Shown here: positions 5,790 through 40,633 of the stretch, piece after piece
Numbering within the stretch: position 1 is the first letter of the stretch
Layout: each line of letters begins with the position of its first letter
Source of the DNA: Olavius algarvensis Gamma 3 endosymbiont
GTDB taxonomy: Bacteria; Pseudomonadota; Gammaproteobacteria; GCA-001735895
Direction of reading: 5' to 3'
Length of the DNA stretch: 40,633 bases
NCBI GenBank assembly: GCA_001735895.1
Contig: DS021198.1
Location: forward strand, 592,045 to 632,677
Program-made: the position numbers and the translations under genes
The notes under the pieces: generated by a model
What the model saw: only the letters and a program-made list of their open reading frames with translations
The model's database searches: none
Told to the model about the DNA's origin: nothing

Positions 5790-6100
5790 CGCTAAGATGT
5801 TATGCGGCACGGAAAAGTGTCAAAGTAAAACAGCACTGGATTTGATAGAGTAGACCGAATCACCGAGAATATGAGCCAACCGAAGTAGCCAGAAAATATC
5901 AATAAGAAACGGCAACCGAAACAGACGAAAAATGCAAAGAAGCATTGGAGAAGGCGTTGAAGGAAAAACAGTTCATCACAAAAACTCAGCCCCGAACTTA
6001 TGGATTGATTTTACTTCGTCCATCAACACGCCAGGGTTCAACTGGGATGGTGAATCGCCCCGGGTTTGTCGGAGGCTCAATTTCTTGAGAGGATTGGGTA

Positions 6101-7316
<1,216 letters not shown>

Positions 7317-7356
7317 CTCACACAAAACAGCCTCCGGAAATCCCGGGGCGATTCAG

Positions 7357-30754: not shown

Positions 30755-30930
30755 AAACACGATCGTTATGCCAACGAATCGCGCCGCTACCACGGCATCG
30801 GCCTGTCGGGCCCGAATGCACGCGAATTCCTGTCCCGAATCACGCGCGACGGTGTTTCCGGCGATGCACTCAAAATCCGCGATATCAGAGGAACCTTCAC
30901 CGACACTGTGCCGGCGAAGAAAAAATACGC
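30755..30930 (+). pseudogene. Fragment of a GcvT-domain (dimethylglycine dehydrogenase-like) oxidoreductase
   Basis: The + frame gives RYANESRRYHGIGLSGPNAR then EFLSRITRDGVSGDALKIRD, closely resembling the aminomethyltransferase (GcvT) part of dimethylglycine/sarcosine dehydrogenase-type proteins (GISGPxAREFLxRLT). There is no start, no FAD domain and no C-terminus. The frame then runs into the palindromic repeat. It is a short relic of a one-carbon or methylamine catabolic gene. Confidence 0.6.
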
Positions 30931-30944
30931 GCATAATTATTCCT

Positions 30945-31041
30945 CGTCATTGCGAGGCGTGAAGCGCCGAAGCAATCTTGCAATTTCAGGAAGATTGCTT
31001 CGAGGAACCTGCCCCGGCGAAGGCCGGGGCTCGCAATGACG
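30945..31041. repeat. 97-bp palindromic MITE-like repeat
   Basis: Outer arms CGTCATTGCGAG (30945-30956) and CTCGCAATGACG (31030-31041) are perfect inverted repeats. Inside are a 12-bp stem (CGAAGCAATCTT with AAGATTGCTTCG) and an 8-bp GC stem (GCCCCGGC with GCCGGGGC). CGTCATTGCGAG-type elements are dispersed in many bacterial genomes. Confidence 0.75.
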
Positions 31042-31051
31042 CTGACTAACG

Positions 31052-31100
31052 GCGTCATCCCGGGAGTTACCCGTCATCCCCGCGCAAGCGACGGTTCGGC
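31052..31100. repeat. REP-like GTCATCCC motifs
   Basis: Two GTCATCCC-type motifs lie close together (one followed by GGGAG, the next by CCGCGCAAGCGACGG). They resemble degenerate extragenic palindromes of the CCGCG-CAAGCGG kind seen again near 35430 and 36760. Confidence 0.4.
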
Positions 31101-31268
31101 GAATCGGAGTGTTACAACGCAGGCACCCAATTCAAATCCGGACAAATTCAGAGTCACATCATTAATACAGTTTCCGGATGCCCTGACCTTCACGAATTCG
31201 ATACTGTGTACCCGGAATTCCATTAATCACTATGGTATTTATATGTGCTGTTGCTTCGGAGCAAGAAT

Positions 31269-32381
31269 TTGAAATCCGCGATCTATTACCTGTTCATCAT
31301 CGGTATTTTGTCGGGCTGCGGCAGTTCCGGCAGCAGTACCCCGGAAAAGGAAATTCCGGTGGTGCCCCCGAGCCTGATCGAAATTCCGGTGACCGGTATC
31401 CCCGTGGACCTGGGTAGCTTTGACCCGGCGCCAACCGTGGATGCCGGCGGCGGAGTCTGGATGAGCTATTCGCAGGTCTCGCTCGACGGGAGCGGGCTCA
31501 AGCTCATCGAGACACGGCTGGCCAGCAGCCTGGACGCCGGCGATAGCTGGACGGATCAGGGCCTGAGCATCAACCCGGCCGCGGCATTCACGATAGGCCC
31601 GGATACCGTTGCCTGGGCGCAGGAAGTGTCGCGGCTGGTGTATAACCCGTTTGCGTCCGGGGCCGGTGCGGACCCATGGATTATTCTCTGGCACCGCTAC
31701 CTGTCCATCCTCAGCGGCAGCGAAACGCTGCGACTGTTCGACAATGGCTGGATCGGTATGAAATCAGGCAATAGCGTGATGACACTTGGCAACGAGCGCA
31801 AGCTGTTTACCGGCGCTTTATACAATGCGGCCAACAATTCCACCATCGGCCCGCCGGAAGTGGCACTGGATACACTGGACCCCGCGCTGGCCGATTGTGT
31901 CGCTTTTACCGAGCCGGGTGTGCTGCCCAAAAGCAGCGGAATATACATCTCCTTGCTTTGTGCCACCGCCGCCCCGCCCGGAAAAATTATCCTGTTGCGG
32001 TGCGATCACCATATGAATAACTGCGGATACCTGGGGGCCCTGATCGATGGCAGCGAGGCTGCTTTGCTCGATAGCGGTTACGACAATTTTTCCGCCTCCG
32101 AACTGGTTTCGGTCAATGGCGAAGACTATCTCATCGTTACGCCGAGCGAGGCGACCATTTACCGCGGCTGCGCCATCTACAGGATCCGCGACCTCGACCA
32201 GGCGAGCATCGAACGCGAAGGCGGAAGCGCTAAAGCCACGGCGGTATTCGAGGCGCATGGCGATTTCAACGGGGCCTGTGGGTACGTGGAGGGTCTGACC
32301 GGGAGCGGCGTCATGATCAGCGAGGCTTTTACGACTTCGGTCCCGGTGTTCAGGCTATTTACCACCGACTATAATTTCTAG
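31269..32381 (+). CDS. Putative lipoprotein with an Asp-box (BNR-like) motif
   Basis: An exported lipoprotein of 370 residues and unknown function. A TTG start at 31269 has GGAG seven bases upstream and gives a short leader (MKSAIYYLFIIGILSGC) with a lipobox and lipidated Cys17. A GTG at 31245 would add eight residues. SLDAGDSW (87-94) matches the Asp-box S-x-D-x-G-x-[ST]-W of sialidase-like beta-propellers, so a propeller fold is possible; other Asp-boxes are not obvious. Several cysteines (ADCVAF, LLCATA, LRCDHHMNNCGY, FNGACGY) may form disulfides. Confidence 0.75.
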   Translation: MKSAIYYLFIIGILSGCGSSGSSTPEKEIPVVPPSLIEIPVTGIPVDLGSFDPAPTVDAGGGVWMSYSQVSLDGSGLKLIETRLASSLDAGDSWTDQGLSINPAAAFTIGPDTVAWAQEVSRLVYNPFASGAGADPWIILWHRYLSILSGSETLRLFDNGWIGMKSGNSVMTLGNERKLFTGALYNAANNSTIGPPEVALDTLDPALADCVAFTEPGVLPKSSGIYISLLCATAAPPGKIILLRCDHHMNNCGYLGALIDGSEAALLDSGYDNFSASELVSVNGEDYLIVTPSEATIYRGCAIYRIRDLDQASIEREGGSAKATAVFEAHGDFNGACGYVEGLTGSGVMISEAFTTSVPVFRLFTTDYNF

Positions 32382-32400
32382 CGTCCGAAAAGTTACGGGG

Positions 32401-32455
32401 TCAGGCTTTACAATCGACATTGCTGCTCGTAACGTTTGTAAAATGTAAGGCCTGA
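32401..32455. repeat. Short palindromic element with TCAGGC ends
   Basis: TCAGGCTTTACA and TGTAAGGCCTGA are inverted repeats with one mismatch, preceded by GGGG. A similar GGGGTCAGGC motif is found, inverted, at the right side of the IS200-like element (near 36270-36279). It may be a mobile-element relic. Confidence 0.5.
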
Positions 32456-32589
32456 TTCCTTTACCCGAACCCTTTTACCAATGACAACCAGAAGTGACCA
32501 CGTGGCGGAACGGGAATAGCAATGACATGGTCCAATAGATTGATACCACCCAGTTAAGAGATAATGAAACTTAACTGAGGTAACGATAG

Positions 32590-32862
32590 ATGACAACGAG
32601 AAAGAAATATACGAAAGAATTCAAACTGGATGCAGTGAGCCTGGTAACTGATCAGGGCTACAGCCGGGCGGAAGCAGCGCGAAGCCTGGGCATCAATGCC
32701 AATATGCTGTGCCGATGGGTGCAAGAGGAACAATCGGGTGATGGCCAGGCTTTCCGTGGGAACGGCAAGCTGACACCGGATCAGGAAGAGAACCGTCGAC
32801 TTAAAGCTGAAATCAAACGCCTGAAAAAGGCGACGGTATTCTTTGCAGCAGAAACGAAATGA
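32590..32862 (+). CDS. IS3-family transposase OrfA (type 2)
   Basis: A transposase DNA-binding subunit of 90 residues: KYTKEFKLDAVSLVTDQGYS, then the helix-turn-helix RAEAARSLGINANMLCRWVQ, and a C-terminal zipper segment (EENRRLKAEIKRLKKATVFF). GAGG precedes the start. Its stop overlaps the OrfB start by four bases (ATGA). It is intact although the following gene is broken. Confidence 0.95.
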   Translation: MTTRKKYTKEFKLDAVSLVTDQGYSRAEAARSLGINANMLCRWVQEEQSGDGQAFRGNGKLTPDQEENRRLKAEIKRLKKATVFFAAETK

Positions 32863-33353
32863 AATACTCGTTTATCACCCAACACAAGAATACCTTTCCC
32901 GTTCGCCTGATGTGTCAGGTGCTGGGTGTGGACCGGTCATGTTATTACCACTACCGGCGCCAGATGGACACAAGACCGCCTGATCCCGAGCATGAGGAAA
33001 TGCTGGAGTGGGTTCAGCGGGTTGATGATGCGAGTGATCATACCTACGGCAGCCGACGTATGAAACGGGCCCTGAACTGTCTGGGTTATCCGGTGAGCCG
33101 GAATAAGGCGCGGAATTTGATGCGGGAGGCCGGAGTTCAGGTACGTCATCGCAAGAAATTCAAGGTGACCACGAACAGCAATCACAAACAACCGGTGTAC
33201 GACAATCTGCTTCAGCGGCAATTTGATGTGCCCCAGCCTGATCAGGTCTACGCAGCGGATGTGACTTATGTATGGACCCAGGAGGGCTGGCTTTACCTGG
33301 CTGTCGTGATAGATTGAATCGCCCCGGGATTTCCGGAGGCTGTTTTGTGTGAG

Positions 33354-34553
<1,200 letters not shown>

Positions 34554-35067
34554 TACCCAATCCTCTCAAGAAATTGAGCCTCCGACAAACCCGGGGCGAT
34601 TCAGATCTGTGTTTGAGAAAGGTTGTGGGCTGGAGCATGAGCCCTCGGATGAAATCGCAGTTGGTCTGTGATGCCTTGAAGATGGCCGCCTGGCAGCGCC
34701 GACCCAAGGCAGGTTTAATCCATCACTCGGATCGTGGGTCTCAGTATGCCAGCAAGGCATTCCGAAAATTACTCAGAATCAACGGGTTCCAGGGCAGCAT
34801 GAGCCGTAAAGGTGACTGTTGGGATAATGCGGTGGTCGAGAGCTTCTTTGGCAGTCTGAAGCAGGAGCGGGTGCAATGGCGAAATTATCAGACTCGATAT
34901 GAAGCACAGCAGGATATTCTGCAGTACATATCCAGCTGGTATAACCCATATCGATTACATTCGACGCTGAATTATGTCAGCCCGAATGATTATGAAAAAC
35001 GACTACTCGAAACGAAGCATGCCGCTTAACTGGGGTGTATCAAAAAGTTTGACCACATCACAACGAC

Positions 35068-35259
35068 CTAGACATCCGGCATAACATCCACCACCCGGAA
35101 CAGCTCTTCTTCCCATTCCTGCAGTTTGATAATGATTTCTTTCAGATCGTCTTCGGATATGCCGCCGATGCTCTGAGAGGGTCGGACCTTTTTCAGCTGG
35201 TCGATCGCCGTGGTGATGTGCACTCGGTCGATTACCTTGATGTATTCGTGTTCTTGCAT
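35068..35259 (-). CDS. Small hypothetical protein (63 aa)
   Basis: An acidic, probably helical protein of 63 residues with no recognised family: it begins MQEHEYIKVIDRVHITTAID and contains GGISEDDLKEIIIKLQEWEE. GAGG lies eight bases before the ATG, and composition is protein-like without stops for its length. It ends only 12 bases from the type 2 IS right end, so its downstream context has been changed. No function is proposed. Confidence 0.5.
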   Translation of the reverse strand: MQEHEYIKVIDRVHITTAIDQLKKVRPSQSIGGISEDDLKEIIIKLQEWEEELFRVVDVMPDV

Positions 35260-35343
35260 GATTCTGGCCTCGTTGATCTTGCTTTCCCGAACAGTTTGTT
35301 TATTTTACTAGAATCCATTCCCCCGGTGTTGAGCGTTTTCCGT

Positions 35344-35407
35344 GGACACAATACTTGTTTCAAGTCAGGCAAATTATTCGGCCTGCTTAGAAATAAGTAT
35401 TGAGTCC
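35344..35407. repeat. 64-bp MITE-like imperfect palindrome
   Basis: GGACACAATACTTGTTTC at the left pairs, with few mismatches, with GAAATAAGTATTGAGTCC at the right, and an inner CAGGC/GCCTG stem surrounds an AT-rich loop. It has the look of a small non-autonomous repeat. Confidence 0.5.
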
Positions 35408-35602
35408 CCAGATTTCCGTCCACAGGTGTCACCCCCGCGAAAGCTGCGGTCCGACGTATCGGGATCTCCGAAACTCAGTTCGCAAGAAAATGATGCCTCA
35501 TCCGAATTGCACTTACATTAGCTGTCAGGCCCGCGTAAGCGGGCATCTTTTAAGCGCTATCATGCTGTGGTTAGGAGATCCCGCTTGCGCGGGAAGTCAC
35601 CT
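35408..35602. repeat. REP-like extragenic palindromes, including an inverted pair
   Basis: A degenerate copy (GTCACCCCCGCGAAAGC) lies at about 35428. Two better copies, GTCAGGCCCGCGTAAGCGGG (from 35524) and, inverted, CCCGCTTGCGCGGGAAGTCA (to about 35599), face each other across about 30 bases. Each has a GC stem with a short loop. The pair resembles a BIME next to a Y1 transposase gene. Confidence 0.55.
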
Positions 35603-35631
35603 ACTACCGGCATAGCCGGTAGTTTGAATTA

Positions 35632-35650
35632 AGCCCCCCAGTGGGGGGCT
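35632..35650 (-). terminator. GC-rich hairpin downstream of the Y1 transposase
   Basis: AGCCCCCC pairs with GGGGGGCT around AGT, 23 bases past the transposase stop. On the transcribed strand it is followed by TAATTC. It may terminate transcription or be part of the transposon end. Confidence 0.5.
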
Positions 35651-35672
35651 ATGGGCCCGTGCCAAGTTTCAG

Positions 35673-36107
35673 TTAATAGTATTGCATCTCTTTCTGTTGC
35701 TCTTCCTTGTCCTTCTTCTCCTGACTTCGGATGTAATCGATCACCTGGGCTTCTTTCAGTCCTATCGTACTTACGCAGTATCCCCTCGACCAGAAATTGA
35801 GCCCCTTGAAGTTCTTCTTCCTCCCATATCTCTGGTGCAGAAGAATTGTCGACTTACCTTTCAACTTGCCGATAAATTCCGATACGCTAAATTTGGGCGG
35901 AAGCTCCAGGCACATATGGACGTGATCCGGCATTACGTGCCCTTCAACTACTTCCACTCCGTATCGAGTACAAATCTCCTTTAATAGCTCTCCTATTATT
36001 TTTCGCGTCGCTCCATATAACTGCCGACGCCGATACTTTGGTACAATCACCATGTGGTACCTGCAGTACCATCGTACGTGGCTCTGGCTTCGCCATTGTC
36101 TCAACAT
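35673..36107 (-). CDS. tnpA: IS200-family Y1 transposase (TnpA)
   Basis: A HUH single-strand transposase of 144 residues, normal for IS200. The HUH motif is H62-V-H64 in GHVMPDHVHMCLELP, and the nucleophile is Y110 in WSRGYCVSTIG. The N-terminus (SHVRWYCRYHMVIVPKYRRR) matches the family. The C-terminus is a charged Lys/Glu/Gln helix (SQEKKDKEEQQKEMQ). It is probably functional, as the frame is complete and hairpin ends are present on both sides. Confidence 0.93.
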   Translation of the reverse strand: MLRQWRSQSHVRWYCRYHMVIVPKYRRRQLYGATRKIIGELLKEICTRYGVEVVEGHVMPDHVHMCLELPPKFSVSEFIGKLKGKSTILLHQRYGRKKNFKGLNFWSRGYCVSTIGLKEAQVIDYIRSQEKKDKEEQQKEMQYY

Positions 36108-36301
36108 GGTTTCTCTCCTCTTTTGGACTTACCAGGCCCAAGGGGAGAGAAACCATATCTCTATCATCGATTCAATGCTTACTCGGCAATGCCCTTGTTA
36201 TTCACACCGGCATAGCCGGTGGTTTCGGGCATTAAATGACTGACATGGTTAATGTAAGCGCCATTAATGCCTGACCCCTGTTAACTCCGAGGAAAACACC
36301 T

Positions 36302-36733
36302 ATGTCGCTGCCCGGACACATTGATGCCGAGCTACTGAGCCTCGACCCAATCCGCGAAAGCCTGGCCGCATTGCCGCAGGTCGACGTACCCCGCATGCGC
36401 CAGGATCACCTCGATCGTTTGCAGGCCGAGTTGCAGCAGCGCGACCTGGGCGGCATTTTACTCTACGACCCGATCAATGTGCGCTATGCAAAGGACTGCC
36501 GCAATATGCAGATCTGGACCATGCACAACTCCGCGCGCTATTGCTTCGTTCCGGCCGAGGGTAAGGCGGTCATTTTCGACTACGTCAACTGCGAGCATTT
36601 ATCCACGGATAACCAAACCGTCGGCGAAACCGGCGCCCGCGAGGGCGTCAAGCTGGAAGAGATGGTGAGGATTACCGAAACCGGCTGCGAACTGGTGGCG
36701 AATTATCCGTTCGAGGATAAGCTGCTGAGCTGA
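36302..36733 (+). pseudogene. M24 peptidase/DddP-like protein with internal deletion
   Basis: An open frame of 143 residues. Residues 1-102 are the creatinase-type N-terminal domain of a Xaa-Pro peptidase-family protein (GGILLYDPINVRYAKDCRNM, QIWTMHNSARYCFVPAEGKA), similar to DMSP lyase DddP and its relatives. Residues from about 112 match the extreme C-terminus of the same family (GVKLEEMVRITETGCELVAN, YPFEDKLL). The pita-bread catalytic domain with its metal ligands, an estimated 250-300 residues, is missing, yet the frame is preserved. A good ribosome-binding site (GAGG) remains. It cannot have the parent activity. Confidence 0.7.
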
Positions 36734-36934
36734 AATAAGACCGCGACGCCGGCCTCACCTCATCATTCCTGCGAAAGCGGCGGTCGGGCGTCCCGGAATC
36801 TTATTTGAAAACGAACTTCCGGGGTCACTCCCGCAAAAATCAAAAATCCTGACCCTGCACGTTCCTTGCTAACTGTCACCCTGATCCCGCAATAAACTGT
36901 GCTGTAAATTGGCTTTCTAGTAAACTTGCGCGCT
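36734..36934. repeat. Short intergenic region with degenerate REP-like motifs
   Basis: Contains ATCATTCCTGCGAAAGCGGC near 36761 and a second degenerate copy (GGGGTCACTCCCGCAAAAATC) near 36823, both of the GTCAT(T/C)CCCGCG type. Nothing else was seen. Confidence 0.4.
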
Positions 36935-37192
36935 ATGATGGATCGATTCCTGCTCGCGCATGGCGCCGGTCAGTCTGGCGGCAAGCTACTCGATGATTGC
37001 CTCAATCAACTGGGCGATATTCCGCCCGAAGCCAATTTCGGTTTTTTATACCTGAGTGAGCAACTGGCCGCCACCGCCGAACCCTTGATCAATCGGCTTA
37101 AGGAAGCGACCGGAATCACGGCCTGGGTCGGAACTAACGGCCTCGGCATTATCGGCGGCGCGAAAGAACAAGACCGGGACAGATTTATTTAA
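36935..37192 (+). pseudogene. Truncated FIST-domain sensory protein
   Basis: The first 76 or so residues match the N-terminus of FIST signal-transduction proteins (FLLAHGAGQSG, NFGFLYLSEQLAATAEPLIN, TGITAWVGTNGLGIIGG), which are normally near 380 residues. The match stops at GGAKE, after which a foreign-looking tail (QDRDRFI) leads to a stop. The join contains GGGACAGATTTATTT, a motif like mobile-element ends. The start is ATG 36935 or 36938; a TTG at 36926 is also open. The gene was probably cut by insertion of the DNA carrying the helicase. Confidence 0.65.
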
Positions 37193-37280: not shown

Positions 37281-40200
37281 GTGAGTAAGCATCTCAAATC
37301 AGGACAAGTCAGCCTGTTCGACCAGGAAGTCGATTTTCTTGCCGAGCTCTCTTCCAGGGACGGTTGGCCTGACCCAAAAGAATTTCCATTTAATCAACGG
37401 AGCGCATCAGTTGGCTCTGTTGTCACCTCTGATCTGCAGTCGTCTGAAAACCCTCTAATAATCACTGGCTATGCTTCCCTGGATAAGTTGATCGGTTTCT
37501 GTTCCGAAATCGATGCAAGCAGTACGTCCATCCGTATCCTGCTCGGCAGCGAGCCCCATCCTACCCAGCGCACAGAATTTCGAGTTGAATCGATTTCCTT
37601 CCCTGACGAAGTTCGCGAATACTGGCTGGAGCAATCAGTCTCCATTTTACTAAGTGCACAGCTCATTCAGATGATCGAGGATCTTAAGTCTGGACGAATT
37701 CAGGCACGTTATATCAATGCGCCACGGAATCGCCTGCACGCCAAAATGTATGTCGGTGATCAGGCGGTCACAATAGGATCGAGTAATTTCTCGGCCAATG
37801 GCCTACAGCACCAGCTTGAGGCCAATGTGCGTTTTACCCGGTCGCGAGATAAGAAGCGCTATGCGAGTGCCAGCAGTCTGGCCGTTAATTATTGGGATAT
37901 GGGAGAAAGCTACAACGACCAGTTGATCGCTCTCCTGGAACAACTACTTCGGGTGGTGAGCTGGCAAGAGGCGCTGGCGCGTGCCTGTGCTGAAGTGTTG
38001 GAAGGCGACTGGGCTAAACGTTATCTCGAAATTCAAATGTTGCCCGGAGACTTGCCGCTCTGGCCATCGCAAAAGCAGGGCATAGCACAAGCCTTGTGGT
38101 TATTGGAAACCGTTGGCAGCGTGCTCTTGGCCGATGCGACGGGGGCGGGAAAGACTCGCATGGGCGCTTATCTGGTGCGTGCAGCGGTCGACAGAATCTG
38201 GAGCACCGGGCGCGTTCGAAAGGGGCGCCCATTCCTAGTGTGCCCGCCATCAGTTGTCGACGTATGGGATCGGGAATCTCGCTCATGCCAATTGCCGCTG
38301 GATGTTGAATCTCAGGGAGGTTTGAGCCGTCACTCCACCGAGCGTGGCGCCAACATCGCCGATGCCGCTCGGCGGGCGCAAATTCTTGCGGTTGATGAGG
38401 CGCACAACTTTCTGAATGTGACGAGTAACCGGACACAAATGTTGTTGGGCAACATCGCTGATCACGTGATTCTGTTTACGGCGACGCCGATTAATAAAGG
38501 CCCGAAGGACTTGCTACGCCTCGCCGATATGTTGGGGGCGGACAACCTGGATGACGAAACGATTGCCATGTTCGAGCGCCTTTTGCGAATGAAGTCGGTT
38601 GCCGCGCAAGGCCTTTCAGAGGCGCAAGTAAAGCAGCTTCGCCAGCAGATCCAGCAGTTCACGGTTAGGCGCACGAAGGCGATGCTGAATGCGCTCATCG
38701 ACCAGAGCCCCCAGGAGTATCGAAGCAAATCAGGTGATCTGTGCCGCTATCCCGAGCATGATTCGAGAACCTATAAACTGGGTGAACCCGAATCCGATTG
38801 CAGGATCGCCGAAAAAATCTCCGAAATTGCGGATTCGTTGCAGGGCGTTGCCTATTTGAAGCGCAAACTAGAATTGCCTCCGATATTAAGACGGGAAGGC
38901 TGGGATGATGAGAAGTATCTGCGCTCGCGCCTGCTGTCGGCGCGCAAGCTTGCTCGATATATAGTCATGTCCTGTTTGCGCTCTTCACGCGCGGCGCTGG
39001 TGGAACACCTGGAAGGTACGGAAGCCGCGATTGCATTTGAGAACCTGGCAGCTTCGGCAAAGAAAAATCCCACGGGGAACCAGCTGGCAAAACTCGCGAC
39101 ATTGAAAGGTCATCCGCCTGGATTGGCTCTTTCCGTTGATGACGCGCCTGAGTGGTTGAGCGATATAGACGCGCACGCTTCGGCCTGCGATCAGGAAATC
39201 GAACGCTACCGGGAAATTTCCCGGCTTACACGAAAATTATCTCCGGGTCGAGAGATTGCCAAAGGTGTTCACCTGGCCAAGTTAGCAGGCAATCATGAGC
39301 TCTCTATTGCCTTTGACTCAAAGCCGATTTCATTAGCCGTCATTAAAAAATACCTTCTGGAAAAGGCACCTGGTATCGAGGCTGTGATCGCCACCGGTGA
39401 AAACAAGAAAGAGCGGCAGAAGATACAGAAGCTTTTCGATCACAGCTCATCCGCCACAGGCATGGTTGCCTTGTGTTCTGATTCCATGTCGGAAGGCGTG
39501 AATTTGCAGCAGGCATCGGTAGTGACGCATCTGGACATGCCCACCGTAGTGCGGGTTGCTGAGCAGCGGGTTGGACGTGTCGACCGCATGGATAGCCCGC
39601 ATAAGACCATTCAAGCCTGGTGGCCTGAAGACGCGGAGCAATTTGCGCTGACCACAGATGACCGGCTCGTCGAACGACTGGAAGAGGTGGATGTTCTCAT
39701 TGGTTCGAATATGCCGTTGCCGGATTCGATTCGAAGCCAGGGAAAGTCAAGAATCACCGCAAAGGAAGCAATCGAGGAGCAGGAAGCACTGCAGGCTGCG
39801 GAAAATACCTGGGATGAGTTACACGATGCTTTACAGCCAGTGCGCGAGTTGACTCAAGGCAAATTTTCGCTGATCGACGATGACGTTTATGAGCAATACA
39901 AGCATGAGAAAGCAAGAGTGCTCTCGCGCGTAAGTTTGGTGGAGTCAACGAAGCCCTGGGCATTCTTTTGCATATCCGGCTCGCTACTCGGTGCGCCACG
40001 TTGGGTTTTCTTCGATTCAAGCCGGGTCAGGCCATTGGTCGGCTTGACTGATATAACGCGAGCCTTGCGCGGAGTGCTAAGCGACGAGATTGTCAATCTC
40101 GAGATGGATGCGAAAGCATCGGCTCAGTTGGATGTCTATCTGAACAGGTTACTCGAAAGTGAAAGGGAGTTGTTGCCCCGACGAAAACGGCGAGCCCTTG

Positions 40201-40484
40201 AAGAGATGACCGATGTAATGAAAGCATACCTTGACGAGGCGAGCCGCGGGCAGGACCAGAGAGCACTGGAGTTTTTCTCGAAGCTGCTCGATGTGCTCGA
40301 AATGGTGGATCGTCGCTATGTGCCAGACTGGGGAGCCATCGCCGATCGCTGGCTAGATCTCATCAGACCCGTGTGGTACGAGAGACTCATGGACCGTCGC
40401 AAACGTCCGTTACTGTTGAAAGATATTCGCTCAAATTTAACTGGAGACCTGACGTGGTCAAACTTTTTGATACACCCCAGTTAA
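37281..40484 (+). CDS. PLD-nuclease/SNF2-type helicase fusion, candidate anti-phage protein
   Basis: A large cytoplasmic protein of 1067 residues. An N-terminal phospholipase D-like nuclease domain has one HKD motif (H153-x-K155, D160, then GSSN at 166-169), so a dimer would be needed for a full active site. An SF2/SNF2 helicase follows: Walker A DATGAGKT (285-292), DEAH (372-375), TATP (400-403), and in the second lobe SEGVNLQQA and motif VI QRVGRVDR (762-769). A long helical C-terminal region ends the protein. PLD plus SNF2 architecture is known among phage-defence proteins (from memory, not searched). The GTG start has no clear ribosome-binding site. The last nine residues (WSNFLIHPS) and stop come from the type 2 IS inserted at 40455, so the native C-terminus is replaced. 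Confidence 0.85.
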   Translation: MSKHLKSGQVSLFDQEVDFLAELSSRDGWPDPKEFPFNQRSASVGSVVTSDLQSSENPLIITGYASLDKLIGFCSEIDASSTSIRILLGSEPHPTQRTEFRVESISFPDEVREYWLEQSVSILLSAQLIQMIEDLKSGRIQARYINAPRNRLHAKMYVGDQAVTIGSSNFSANGLQHQLEANVRFTRSRDKKRYASASSLAVNYWDMGESYNDQLIALLEQLLRVVSWQEALARACAEVLEGDWAKRYLEIQMLPGDLPLWPSQKQGIAQALWLLETVGSVLLADATGAGKTRMGAYLVRAAVDRIWSTGRVRKGRPFLVCPPSVVDVWDRESRSCQLPLDVESQGGLSRHSTERGANIADAARRAQILAVDEAHNFLNVTSNRTQMLLGNIADHVILFTATPINKGPKDLLRLADMLGADNLDDETIAMFERLLRMKSVAAQGLSEAQVKQLRQQIQQFTVRRTKAMLNALIDQSPQEYRSKSGDLCRYPEHDSRTYKLGEPESDCRIAEKISEIADSLQGVAYLKRKLELPPILRREGWDDEKYLRSRLLSARKLARYIVMSCLRSSRAALVEHLEGTEAAIAFENLAASAKKNPTGNQLAKLATLKGHPPGLALSVDDAPEWLSDIDAHASACDQEIERYREISRLTRKLSPGREIAKGVHLAKLAGNHELSIAFDSKPISLAVIKKYLLEKAPGIEAVIATGENKKERQKIQKLFDHSSSATGMVALCSDSMSEGVNLQQASVVTHLDMPTVVRVAEQRVGRVDRMDSPHKTIQAWWPEDAEQFALTTDDRLVERLEEVDVLIGSNMPLPDSIRSQGKSRITAKEAIEEQEALQAAENTWDELHDALQPVRELTQGKFSLIDDDVYEQYKHEKARVLSRVSLVESTKPWAFFCISGSLLGAPRWVFFDSSRVRPLVGLTDITRALRGVLSDEIVNLEMDAKASAQLDVYLNRLLESERELLPRRKRRALEEMTDVMKAYLDEASRGQDQRALEFFSKLLDVLEMVDRRYVPDWGAIADRWLDLIRPVWYERLMDRRKRPLLLKDIRSNLTGDLTWSNFLIHPS

Positions 40485-40633
40485 GCGGCATGCTTCGTTT
40501 CGAGTAGTCGTTTTTCATAATCATTCGGGCTGACATAATTCAGCGTCGAATGTAATCGATATGGGTTATACCAGCTGGATATGTACTGCAGAATATCCTG
40601 CTGTGCTTCATATCGAGTCTGATAATTTCGCCA
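40455..40633 (-). mobile_element. IS3-family insertion sequence, type 2, second copy (partial at window edge)
   Basis: The right end of the element at 32528-35055 appears here inverted: TGGTCAAACTTTTTGATACA is followed by the C-terminal codons of OrfB. It interrupts the 3' end of the PLD-helicase gene. The rest lies beyond the window. Confidence 0.93.
40481..40633 (-). CDS. IS3-family transposase OrfB (type 2), C-terminal part only
   Basis: The last 50 residues of OrfB, from WRNYQTRYEAQQ through SSWYNPYRLHSTLNYVSPND to YEKRLLETKHAA, identical to the end of the interrupted copy at 34607-35029. The start is outside the window, so whether this copy is intact cannot be seen. Confidence 0.93.
   Translation of the reverse strand, partial: WRNYQTRYEAQQDILQYISSWYNPYRLHSTLNYVSPNDYEKRLLETKHAA

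Follow-up and report, generated by a model that had tools for sequence, protein, structure and literature searches.

A PLD nuclease–SNF2 ATPase fusion clipped by an insertion sequence in the Olavius algarvensis Gamma 3 endosymbiont, a candidate single-chain restriction nuclease

A PLD–SNF2 gene and its lost 3′ end

The genome of the Olavius algarvensis Gamma 3 endosymbiont (assembly GCA_001735895.1; 22 contigs, 87% complete) carries the gene described here near the end of a 40,633-nucleotide stretch of contig DS021198.1 (positions 592,045 to 632,677 of the forward strand), which we call the window and whose coordinates we use throughout. A single frame at 37281–40484 on the + strand (1,067 codons, GTG start, zero internal stops) encodes a protein that, judged from its sequence, is an N-terminal phospholipase D (PLD; HKD-type) nuclease followed by a SNF2-type superfamily 2 (SF2) ATPase. 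This fusion had been proposed in an earlier, sequence-only reading of the window, and three domain matches, all above the Pfam cut-offs, bear it out: PLDc_2 at residues 130–190 (E 1.2e-7), SNF2-rel_dom at 366–472 (E 6.1e-15) and Helicase_C at 687–770 (E 2.4e-10). That the gene is real follows from eight full-length relatives, which align with it at 44–51% identity. Its G+C content (53%, against 55% for the window) does not stand out, and a consensus scan found no promoter-like site ahead of it on the + strand. The features of the locus are as follows.

37281–40484, + strand: PLD–SNF2 protein gene, native part to about 40453 (open reading frame, Pfam, alignment of relatives)
37281–37985, + strand: PLD (HKD-type) nuclease region, residues 1–235 (Pfam PLDc_2, invariant columns, PDB profile matches to BfiI, 2c1l, and SauUSI, 7clg)
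37737–37739, 37743–37745, 37785–37787 and 37818–37820, + strand: nuclease residues H153, K155, N169 and E180 (invariant columns)
38130–38156, + strand: Walker A, ADATGAGKT, residues 284–292 (alignment of relatives)
38394–38405, + strand: motif II, DEAH, residues 372–375 (alignment of relatives)
39564–39587, + strand: motif VI, QRVGRVDR, residues 762–769 (alignment of relatives)
39603–40453, + strand: C-terminal region, residues 775–1057, without known domain (Pfam, profile comparison)
40454–40633, − strand: insertion sequence (IS), the same element as 34604–35056, lying in the gene's 3′ end and encoding the frame's last nine codons (comparison of two copies)

The end of the frame is foreign. 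Window positions 40450–40633 match an inverted copy of the element ending near 35056 with 99.5% identity over 184 bases, and the two copies part company just outside ...TTTGACCAC, placing the IS edge at about 40454, a position that, drawn from the comparison of two copies, is good to within a few bases. Residues 1059–1067 are therefore IS-encoded, as the sequence-only reading had held of the final nine. Beyond the insertion point the eight full-length relatives carry 31 to 41 more residues in the alignment; the window copy has nine IS codons in place of at least 31 native residues and, lacking its native end, has probably lost part or all of its activity.

Conserved nuclease and motor residues

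We compared the window protein with its eight full-length relatives (nine rows) and found H153, K155, G166–S168, N169 and E180 invariant in all nine. The triad H153, K155 and D160 had been named as the HKD signature; its first two members hold, and D160 was rejected as a conserved catalytic residue, this position being D in six rows, E in two and A in one. SauUSI reportedly has E at the matching position, reading HxKx4E in the available part of its description (PMC7913695). When more distant PLD–SNF2 proteins, here termed cousins, were added in 13-row and 18-row alignments, H153, K155, N169 and E180 were still invariant. The motor motifs hold across the nine rows, with Walker A kept at 284–292 (sole variable position 289, A or S), motif II kept as DE(A/G/C)H at 372–375, TATP kept at 400–403 and motif VI kept from Q762 to R769 (sole variable position 764), in agreement with the SF2 helicase with intact Walker A, DEAH and motif VI described earlier.

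Profile comparison of the nuclease with the PDB returned a viral nicking-joining enzyme (3.4e-6), BfiI (2c1l; 6e-4) and SauUSI (7clg; 0.008), and the alignments with the latter two superimpose the HxK as well as the downstream N and E. An AlphaFold model built from 18 rows, with a mean predicted local distance difference test (pLDDT) of 67.5 and a predicted template modelling score of 0.51, contains the SNF2 core; it is of fair quality in the nuclease core and the motor, with poor stretches at residues 1–41, 91–123, 224–251, 820–881 and 1032–1067. Foldseek matches to this model are led by eukaryotic SNF2-type ATPases and remodellers, with Zorya ZorD at rank 27, and the named proteins among the 50 matches listed in a BFVD fold search are mostly viral SNF2-type helicases. 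Modelled alone, the C-terminal region reaches a mean pLDDT of 38.9. Profiles of the window family and of the cousins can be aligned as far as about residue 921 (E 1.1e-50), and the C-terminal parts of the two, compared alone, gave no profile match.

A patchily distributed family

The family was found in thirteen other genomes, at 42–54% identity over the matched stretches (handles beginning with G denote genomes, those with L stretches of sequence). In the order, 4 of 41 genomes, the endosymbiont itself among them, have the gene, the three relatives coming from other genomes of the same genus; a sample of the class has it in 11 of 369, including the endosymbiont and G011, with nine further relatives; and a collection of named genomes adds a relative from Mangrovimicrobium sediminis (L004:9977–13219; 49% identity). 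Since at most two first-look candidates were scored per genome in the class and phylum samples, their counts are lower bounds, and the finding of the endosymbiont alone among 398 genomes of the phylum says little. Phage records gave no match to the family; viral contigs gave none in a first scan and distant relatives only in later ones.

In a tree of residues 1–650, built from 18 rows, a branch with 100/100 support separates the 13 rows of the family, together with one cousin, from the four other cousins. The cousin grouped with the family, from Neotabrizicola, sits on a very long branch and was flagged as unsure by the program. Within the family, the same-genus copies of G011 and G002 group together, apart from those of the window and G006, and 9 of the 15 inner branches are open; this placing of the same-genus sequences fits repeated acquisition without proving it. 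The G006 copy (L029:9935–13184) has a frameshift, either real or an assembly error, that breaks it between residues 640 and 642.

We next compared the genes around the family members, in 15 stretches from the 13 other genomes, in two of which the gene is divided between two contigs; contig ends make several stretches short and truncate many neighbourhoods. Among the 182 frames of at least 70 residues besides the PLD–SNF2 gene (59 searched with Pfam, 19 with PADLOC), there was no recurring partner beyond isolated pairs: genes of 78 and 117 residues just upstream of PLD–SNF2 in G006 (L029:13190–13426) and G372 (L020:8477–8830), 61% identical over 61 residues and without a Pfam match; a stretch common to L004 and L030 (43% over 79); and two weak pairs at 24–29%, one between L020 and distant genes of the window, the other between L027 and L029. 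Nor do the neighbourhoods that extend further, in G059, G372, G161 and Mangrovimicrobium, have a neighbour in common.

Restriction–modification (R–M) genes lie beside or close to a few members. In G059 the PLD–SNF2 gene follows HsdR at a distance of 79 bp and precedes Mrr by 6 bp, within a dense defence-like island (L021:30–11671) that also holds an OLD-type AAA/TOPRIM nuclease further upstream, DUF3800 and two unassigned frames; upstream of the G180 copy there is a Type III res gene as well as a mod-like gene, whose match falls in the later part of the model; and in G006 an N6_N4 methyltransferase gene, the 78-residue gene and PLD–SNF2 run in one direction, preceded by an HTH-M78 gene resembling PD-Lambda-2_B. 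Elsewhere, the G262 copy has HipA- and Fic-type genes nearby, that of G372 a TacA-type antitoxin gene, and that of G011 patatin- and caspase-type genes side by side (L030:3704–6124), the remaining scanned neighbours being metabolic, of unknown function or unassigned. The candidate single-gene defence put forward in the sequence-only reading is carried part of the way by these results, with no conserved partner in the readable neighbourhoods of the 13 other genomes, two members beside R–M genes, a third separated from a methyltransferase by one small gene, and a patchy spread.

Methyltransferases accompany the distant cousins

The cousins keep different company. A plasmid collection yielded 62 records with a match, at 24–29% identity in the 20 rows listed, and we examined eleven of them for a methyltransferase. 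An annotated large methyltransferase gene adjoins PLD–SNF2 on the Lactococcus and Haladaptatus plasmids and lies nearby, with genes in between, on those of Deinococcus, Planktothrix, Microcystis and Nostoc (in the last as a TaqI-like protein). In Paenarthrobacter the adjoining 1,336-codon gene is a methyltransferase by profile, in Brasilonema one is indicated by a partial profile match, and in Levilactobacillus and Calothrix unannotated genes of about 1,100 residues, which share 19 and 37% identity with the Deinococcus protein, were included in the methyltransferase alignment; the Neotabrizicola record shows no large methyltransferase. On a viral contig (L037), a 1,176-residue gene directly downstream of PLD–SNF2 has a GNPPY motif, recognised by eye, and is methyltransferase-like. 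The distant cousins mostly lie with an adenine methyltransferase of about 1,100 residues, an R–M-like pair already in print. On the Nostoc plasmid pn2 (L034), the cousin gene also lies near genes for an EVE protein, a deoxynucleoside kinase and a viperin-type protein.

We built a profile (A2) from six cousin-type, TaqI-like methyltransferases and found no full-length match to it in the 13 genomes that hold the window family; as a control, it matched four of six cousin records, two with good scores (1182 and 241 bits) and two only in part, and missed L037 and Neotabrizicola. The G006-type methyltransferase occurs full-length only in G006 itself, with partial matches in G304 and G372. DUF499 (PF04465) and DUF1156 (PF06634), the latter of which we take to mark the COG1743-type N6-methyltransferase, are each found in none of the 13 host genomes, the Thermotoga maritima control being positive for both; DUF3780 (PF12635) is likewise in none, with the control genomes equally without a match. 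A motif-based scan for methyltransferases was not relied on, as the mod-like gene of L022 escaped it.

Proposed function and its rivals

The family has a nuclease and a motor domain with conserved catalytic residues, no shared partner gene, R–M neighbours in a few genomes and a patchy spread. We lean, with slightly better than even confidence, towards a single-chain, ATP-dependent, DNA-translocating restriction nuclease that resembles SauUSI and has no cognate methylase. The sequence supports the putative cutter and motor; dimerisation, translocation, cleavage, a trigger and an anti-phage effect are what we infer. On the model of SauUSI, the PLD domains would dimerise to form the active site and the C-terminal region would recognise some mark or state of foreign DNA, after which the SNF2 motor would pump DNA at the expense of ATP and the PLD dimers would cut it at several places. 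The host would be protected through the target recognised, whether modified bases, as for Type IV enzymes, or an unusual DNA state; as no methylase is linked, the simplest trigger would be a feature missing from host DNA. A bolder version, which we offer tentatively and with more doubt than belief, is that the family forms a new methyltransferase-free restriction class, an SNF2-motor counterpart of SauUSI whose family-specific tail (from about residue 925 to the native end) would sense DNA modification or state, giving a Type IV-like defence encoded by one gene, in which a new reader domain takes over the specificity that the cousins presumably draw from their methyltransferase.

Several observations weigh against a methylase-free nuclease of this kind. 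Any modified-base reader in the C-terminal region goes unrecognised by Pfam, and the models are poor there; and R–M genes outside G059, G180 and G006 were not seen among the 59 of 182 neighbouring frames scanned. The A2 negatives are not absolute, since the profile matched four of six cousins, two of them partly, and missed L037, and its single match in the host genomes (44 bits, partial, in a 1,206-codon frame on another contig of G262, C4, near position 209416) may represent a large methyltransferase. A part of the family may indeed act together with a methylase, because the G006 methyltransferase lies one small gene upstream and G372 keeps that small gene's relative.

The same observations bear on the possibility that the protein is the nuclease–motor half of a two-part R–M system whose methyltransferase would be encoded either in the unreadable part that follows the window or at another place in the genome. 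The arrangement of most cousins, on plasmids and on one viral contig, is of this kind, as is the codirectional trio in G006; the partial match in G262 could be read in the same way, and a run of 5,312 N directly after the window (L002:279–5590) in an assembly (G000) that is 87% complete leaves room for such a gene. Yet the cousin-type methyltransferase is full-length in none of the 13 host genomes, that of G006 is confined in full length to G006, and the longer stretches from four genomes have no neighbour in common, and we consider this explanation unlikely. Far less probable still is a RapA-type housekeeping helicase of repair or transcription recycling that happens to carry a PLD domain: RapA is the motor's best PDB sequence match, but the nuclease residues are conserved and two genomes have R–M neighbours. 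The sequence-only reading had held that housekeeping repair helicases with conserved chromosomal neighbours would tell against it, which is not what we find, because the gene is rare (4 of 41 and 11 of 369 genomes) and its neighbours differ.

A last alternative concerns the window copy alone and is compatible with a methylase-free nuclease family: we give an even chance to its being a decaying gene, without present function, in a family of real defence nucleases. The IS in its 3′ end, the 31 to 41 residues by which the eight full-length relatives outrun it and the remnants that adjoin it speak for decay, whereas the frame is otherwise intact, every catalytic motif is present, and the missing tail falls outside nuclease and motor.

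In the available parts of the papers on them, HKD–SNF2 restriction proteins are described within methylase-containing systems, and a methylase-free branch poses the question of how a processive DNA shredder spares its own genome. Should the tail read modified bases, it would be a new reader domain among Type IV enzymes; should it read DNA ends or replication intermediates, it would link restriction to DNA-state sensing. The IS-clipped copy itself points to the tail as a part worth study.

Surroundings of the gene in the window

The mobile surroundings noted earlier are evident, and the truncated gene said to precede PLD–SNF2 could be named.

36926–37192, + strand: truncated FIST-domain gene, first ~75 residues, broken near 37163–37172 (comparison with genus relatives)

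Genus relatives have an intact FIST-type protein of about 373 residues, and the broken gene ends 109–118 bp ahead of the PLD–SNF2 start. Pfam FIST scores only 13.3 bits on the truncated gene, below the cut-off. Of 41 genomes in the order, 14, the endosymbiont among them, gave FIST matches, and 11 of the 13 others have open frames of at least 370 codons. The remainder of the gene gave no match past the N gap, where only a nucleotide comparison was used, of six relatives' stretches against the far side.

Upstream of it, a 143-residue frame at 36302–36733 (+ strand) matches the N-terminal part of the DddP (DMSP-lyase) model NF043017 with 103 bits against a cut-off of 600; its end resembles the DddP C-terminus by eye, suggesting an internally deleted remnant. 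At 32590–35056 there is an apparent nested insertion: judged by its reading frames (about 32590–33317, resumed from 34604), the gene-clipping IS seems to be split by another element, a second IS at 33315–34603, a further copy of which lies at 6051–7355 (97.6%). Two genus relatives (L054 and L057) have the FIST gene no more than about 1.5 kb from a match to window 30764–30917, so that much of 30918–36890 appears inserted. Beyond the run of N, a thiolase frame without a start is followed by a PHB-type gene cluster (names by eye).

Comparison with known systems

Searched against defence-system models, the window protein has DpdE as its top match in NCBIfam and, among the matches listed, in PADLOC, and its NCBIfam scores for DpdE and DrmD fall far below the cut-offs. 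DISARM (DrmD and DrmC) and Dpd (DpdE and DpdK) resemble the window protein in bringing SNF2 and PLD proteins into a defence system, where they are separate genes of multi-gene systems; membership of either was rejected at 62.2 bits against 610 for DrmD and 87 against 500 for DpdE (NCBIfam). The models NF042964 of NCBIfam ('phospholipase D-like domain-containing anti-phage protein') and PLD_Helicase of PADLOC by name unite PLD and helicase in one protein; membership of the former was rejected at 36.4 bits against a cut-off of 1100, and the match to the latter (E 2.5e-6) covers the motor only. Mokosh type II, against which the sequence-only reading had measured the protein and in which, by that reading, an SF1-type helicase precedes PLD, does not seem the closest yardstick, with no Mokosh model among the best 25 of 32 PADLOC matches (E ≤ 1), and HKD–SNF2 proteins and SauUSI are nearer.

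Its PLD domain bearing HxK...N...E and, behind it, an SNF2 motor whose motifs are intact place the window protein in the HKD–SNF2 superfamily. As far as the available parts of the papers tell, Type-2 BREX-related systems (PMC12839542) and COG1743–DUF499–SNF2–nuclease operons (PMC7641849) also have an HKD nuclease at the N terminus of a Swi2/Snf2 helicase, but such loci carry DUF499, an N6-methyltransferase and DUF3780; with DUF499 and DUF1156 in none of the 13 host genomes, membership of the Type-2 BREX-related group was rejected. The orf33/orf34 pair of Lactococcus lactis pLd8, called a putative R–M system by its authors in the accessible text (PMC6098607), is an HKD/PLD–SNF2 protein and adenine methyltransferase of a type that shares the PLD-then-SNF2 architecture and is homologous to about residue 921. 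It differs in identity (24–29% in the plasmid rows listed), in the large methyltransferase of the cousins and in C-terminal parts that do not align; for the window family, an accompanying methyltransferase of about 1,100 residues was not found, there being no shared neighbour and no full-length A2 match in the 13 genomes.

SauUSI (PDB 7clg) is described, in the available part of PMC7913695, as a Type IV enzyme in which PLD dimers cut DNA at multiple places and translocation is ATP-driven. The window family shares with it a single chain with an N-terminal PLD nuclease, an SF2 motor, a C-terminal region and the HxK, together with a weak PLD profile match (E 0.008); SauUSI is reported there to have an HsdR/LlaBIII-like motor and an SRA tail, whereas the motor of the window family is SNF2-like and its tail is without a known domain. 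In the parts of these papers available, the nearest published relatives are the HKD–SNF2 restriction proteins (PMC6098607, PMC7641849, PMC12839542) and, in mode of action, SauUSI (PMC7913695). Since such HKD–SNF2 proteins have been published, the PLD-then-SNF2 order is already described, and among open-licence papers we found none on an HKD–SNF2 branch without a methyltransferase; the architecture itself is known, and the new part is this methyltransferase-free branch with a tail of its own.

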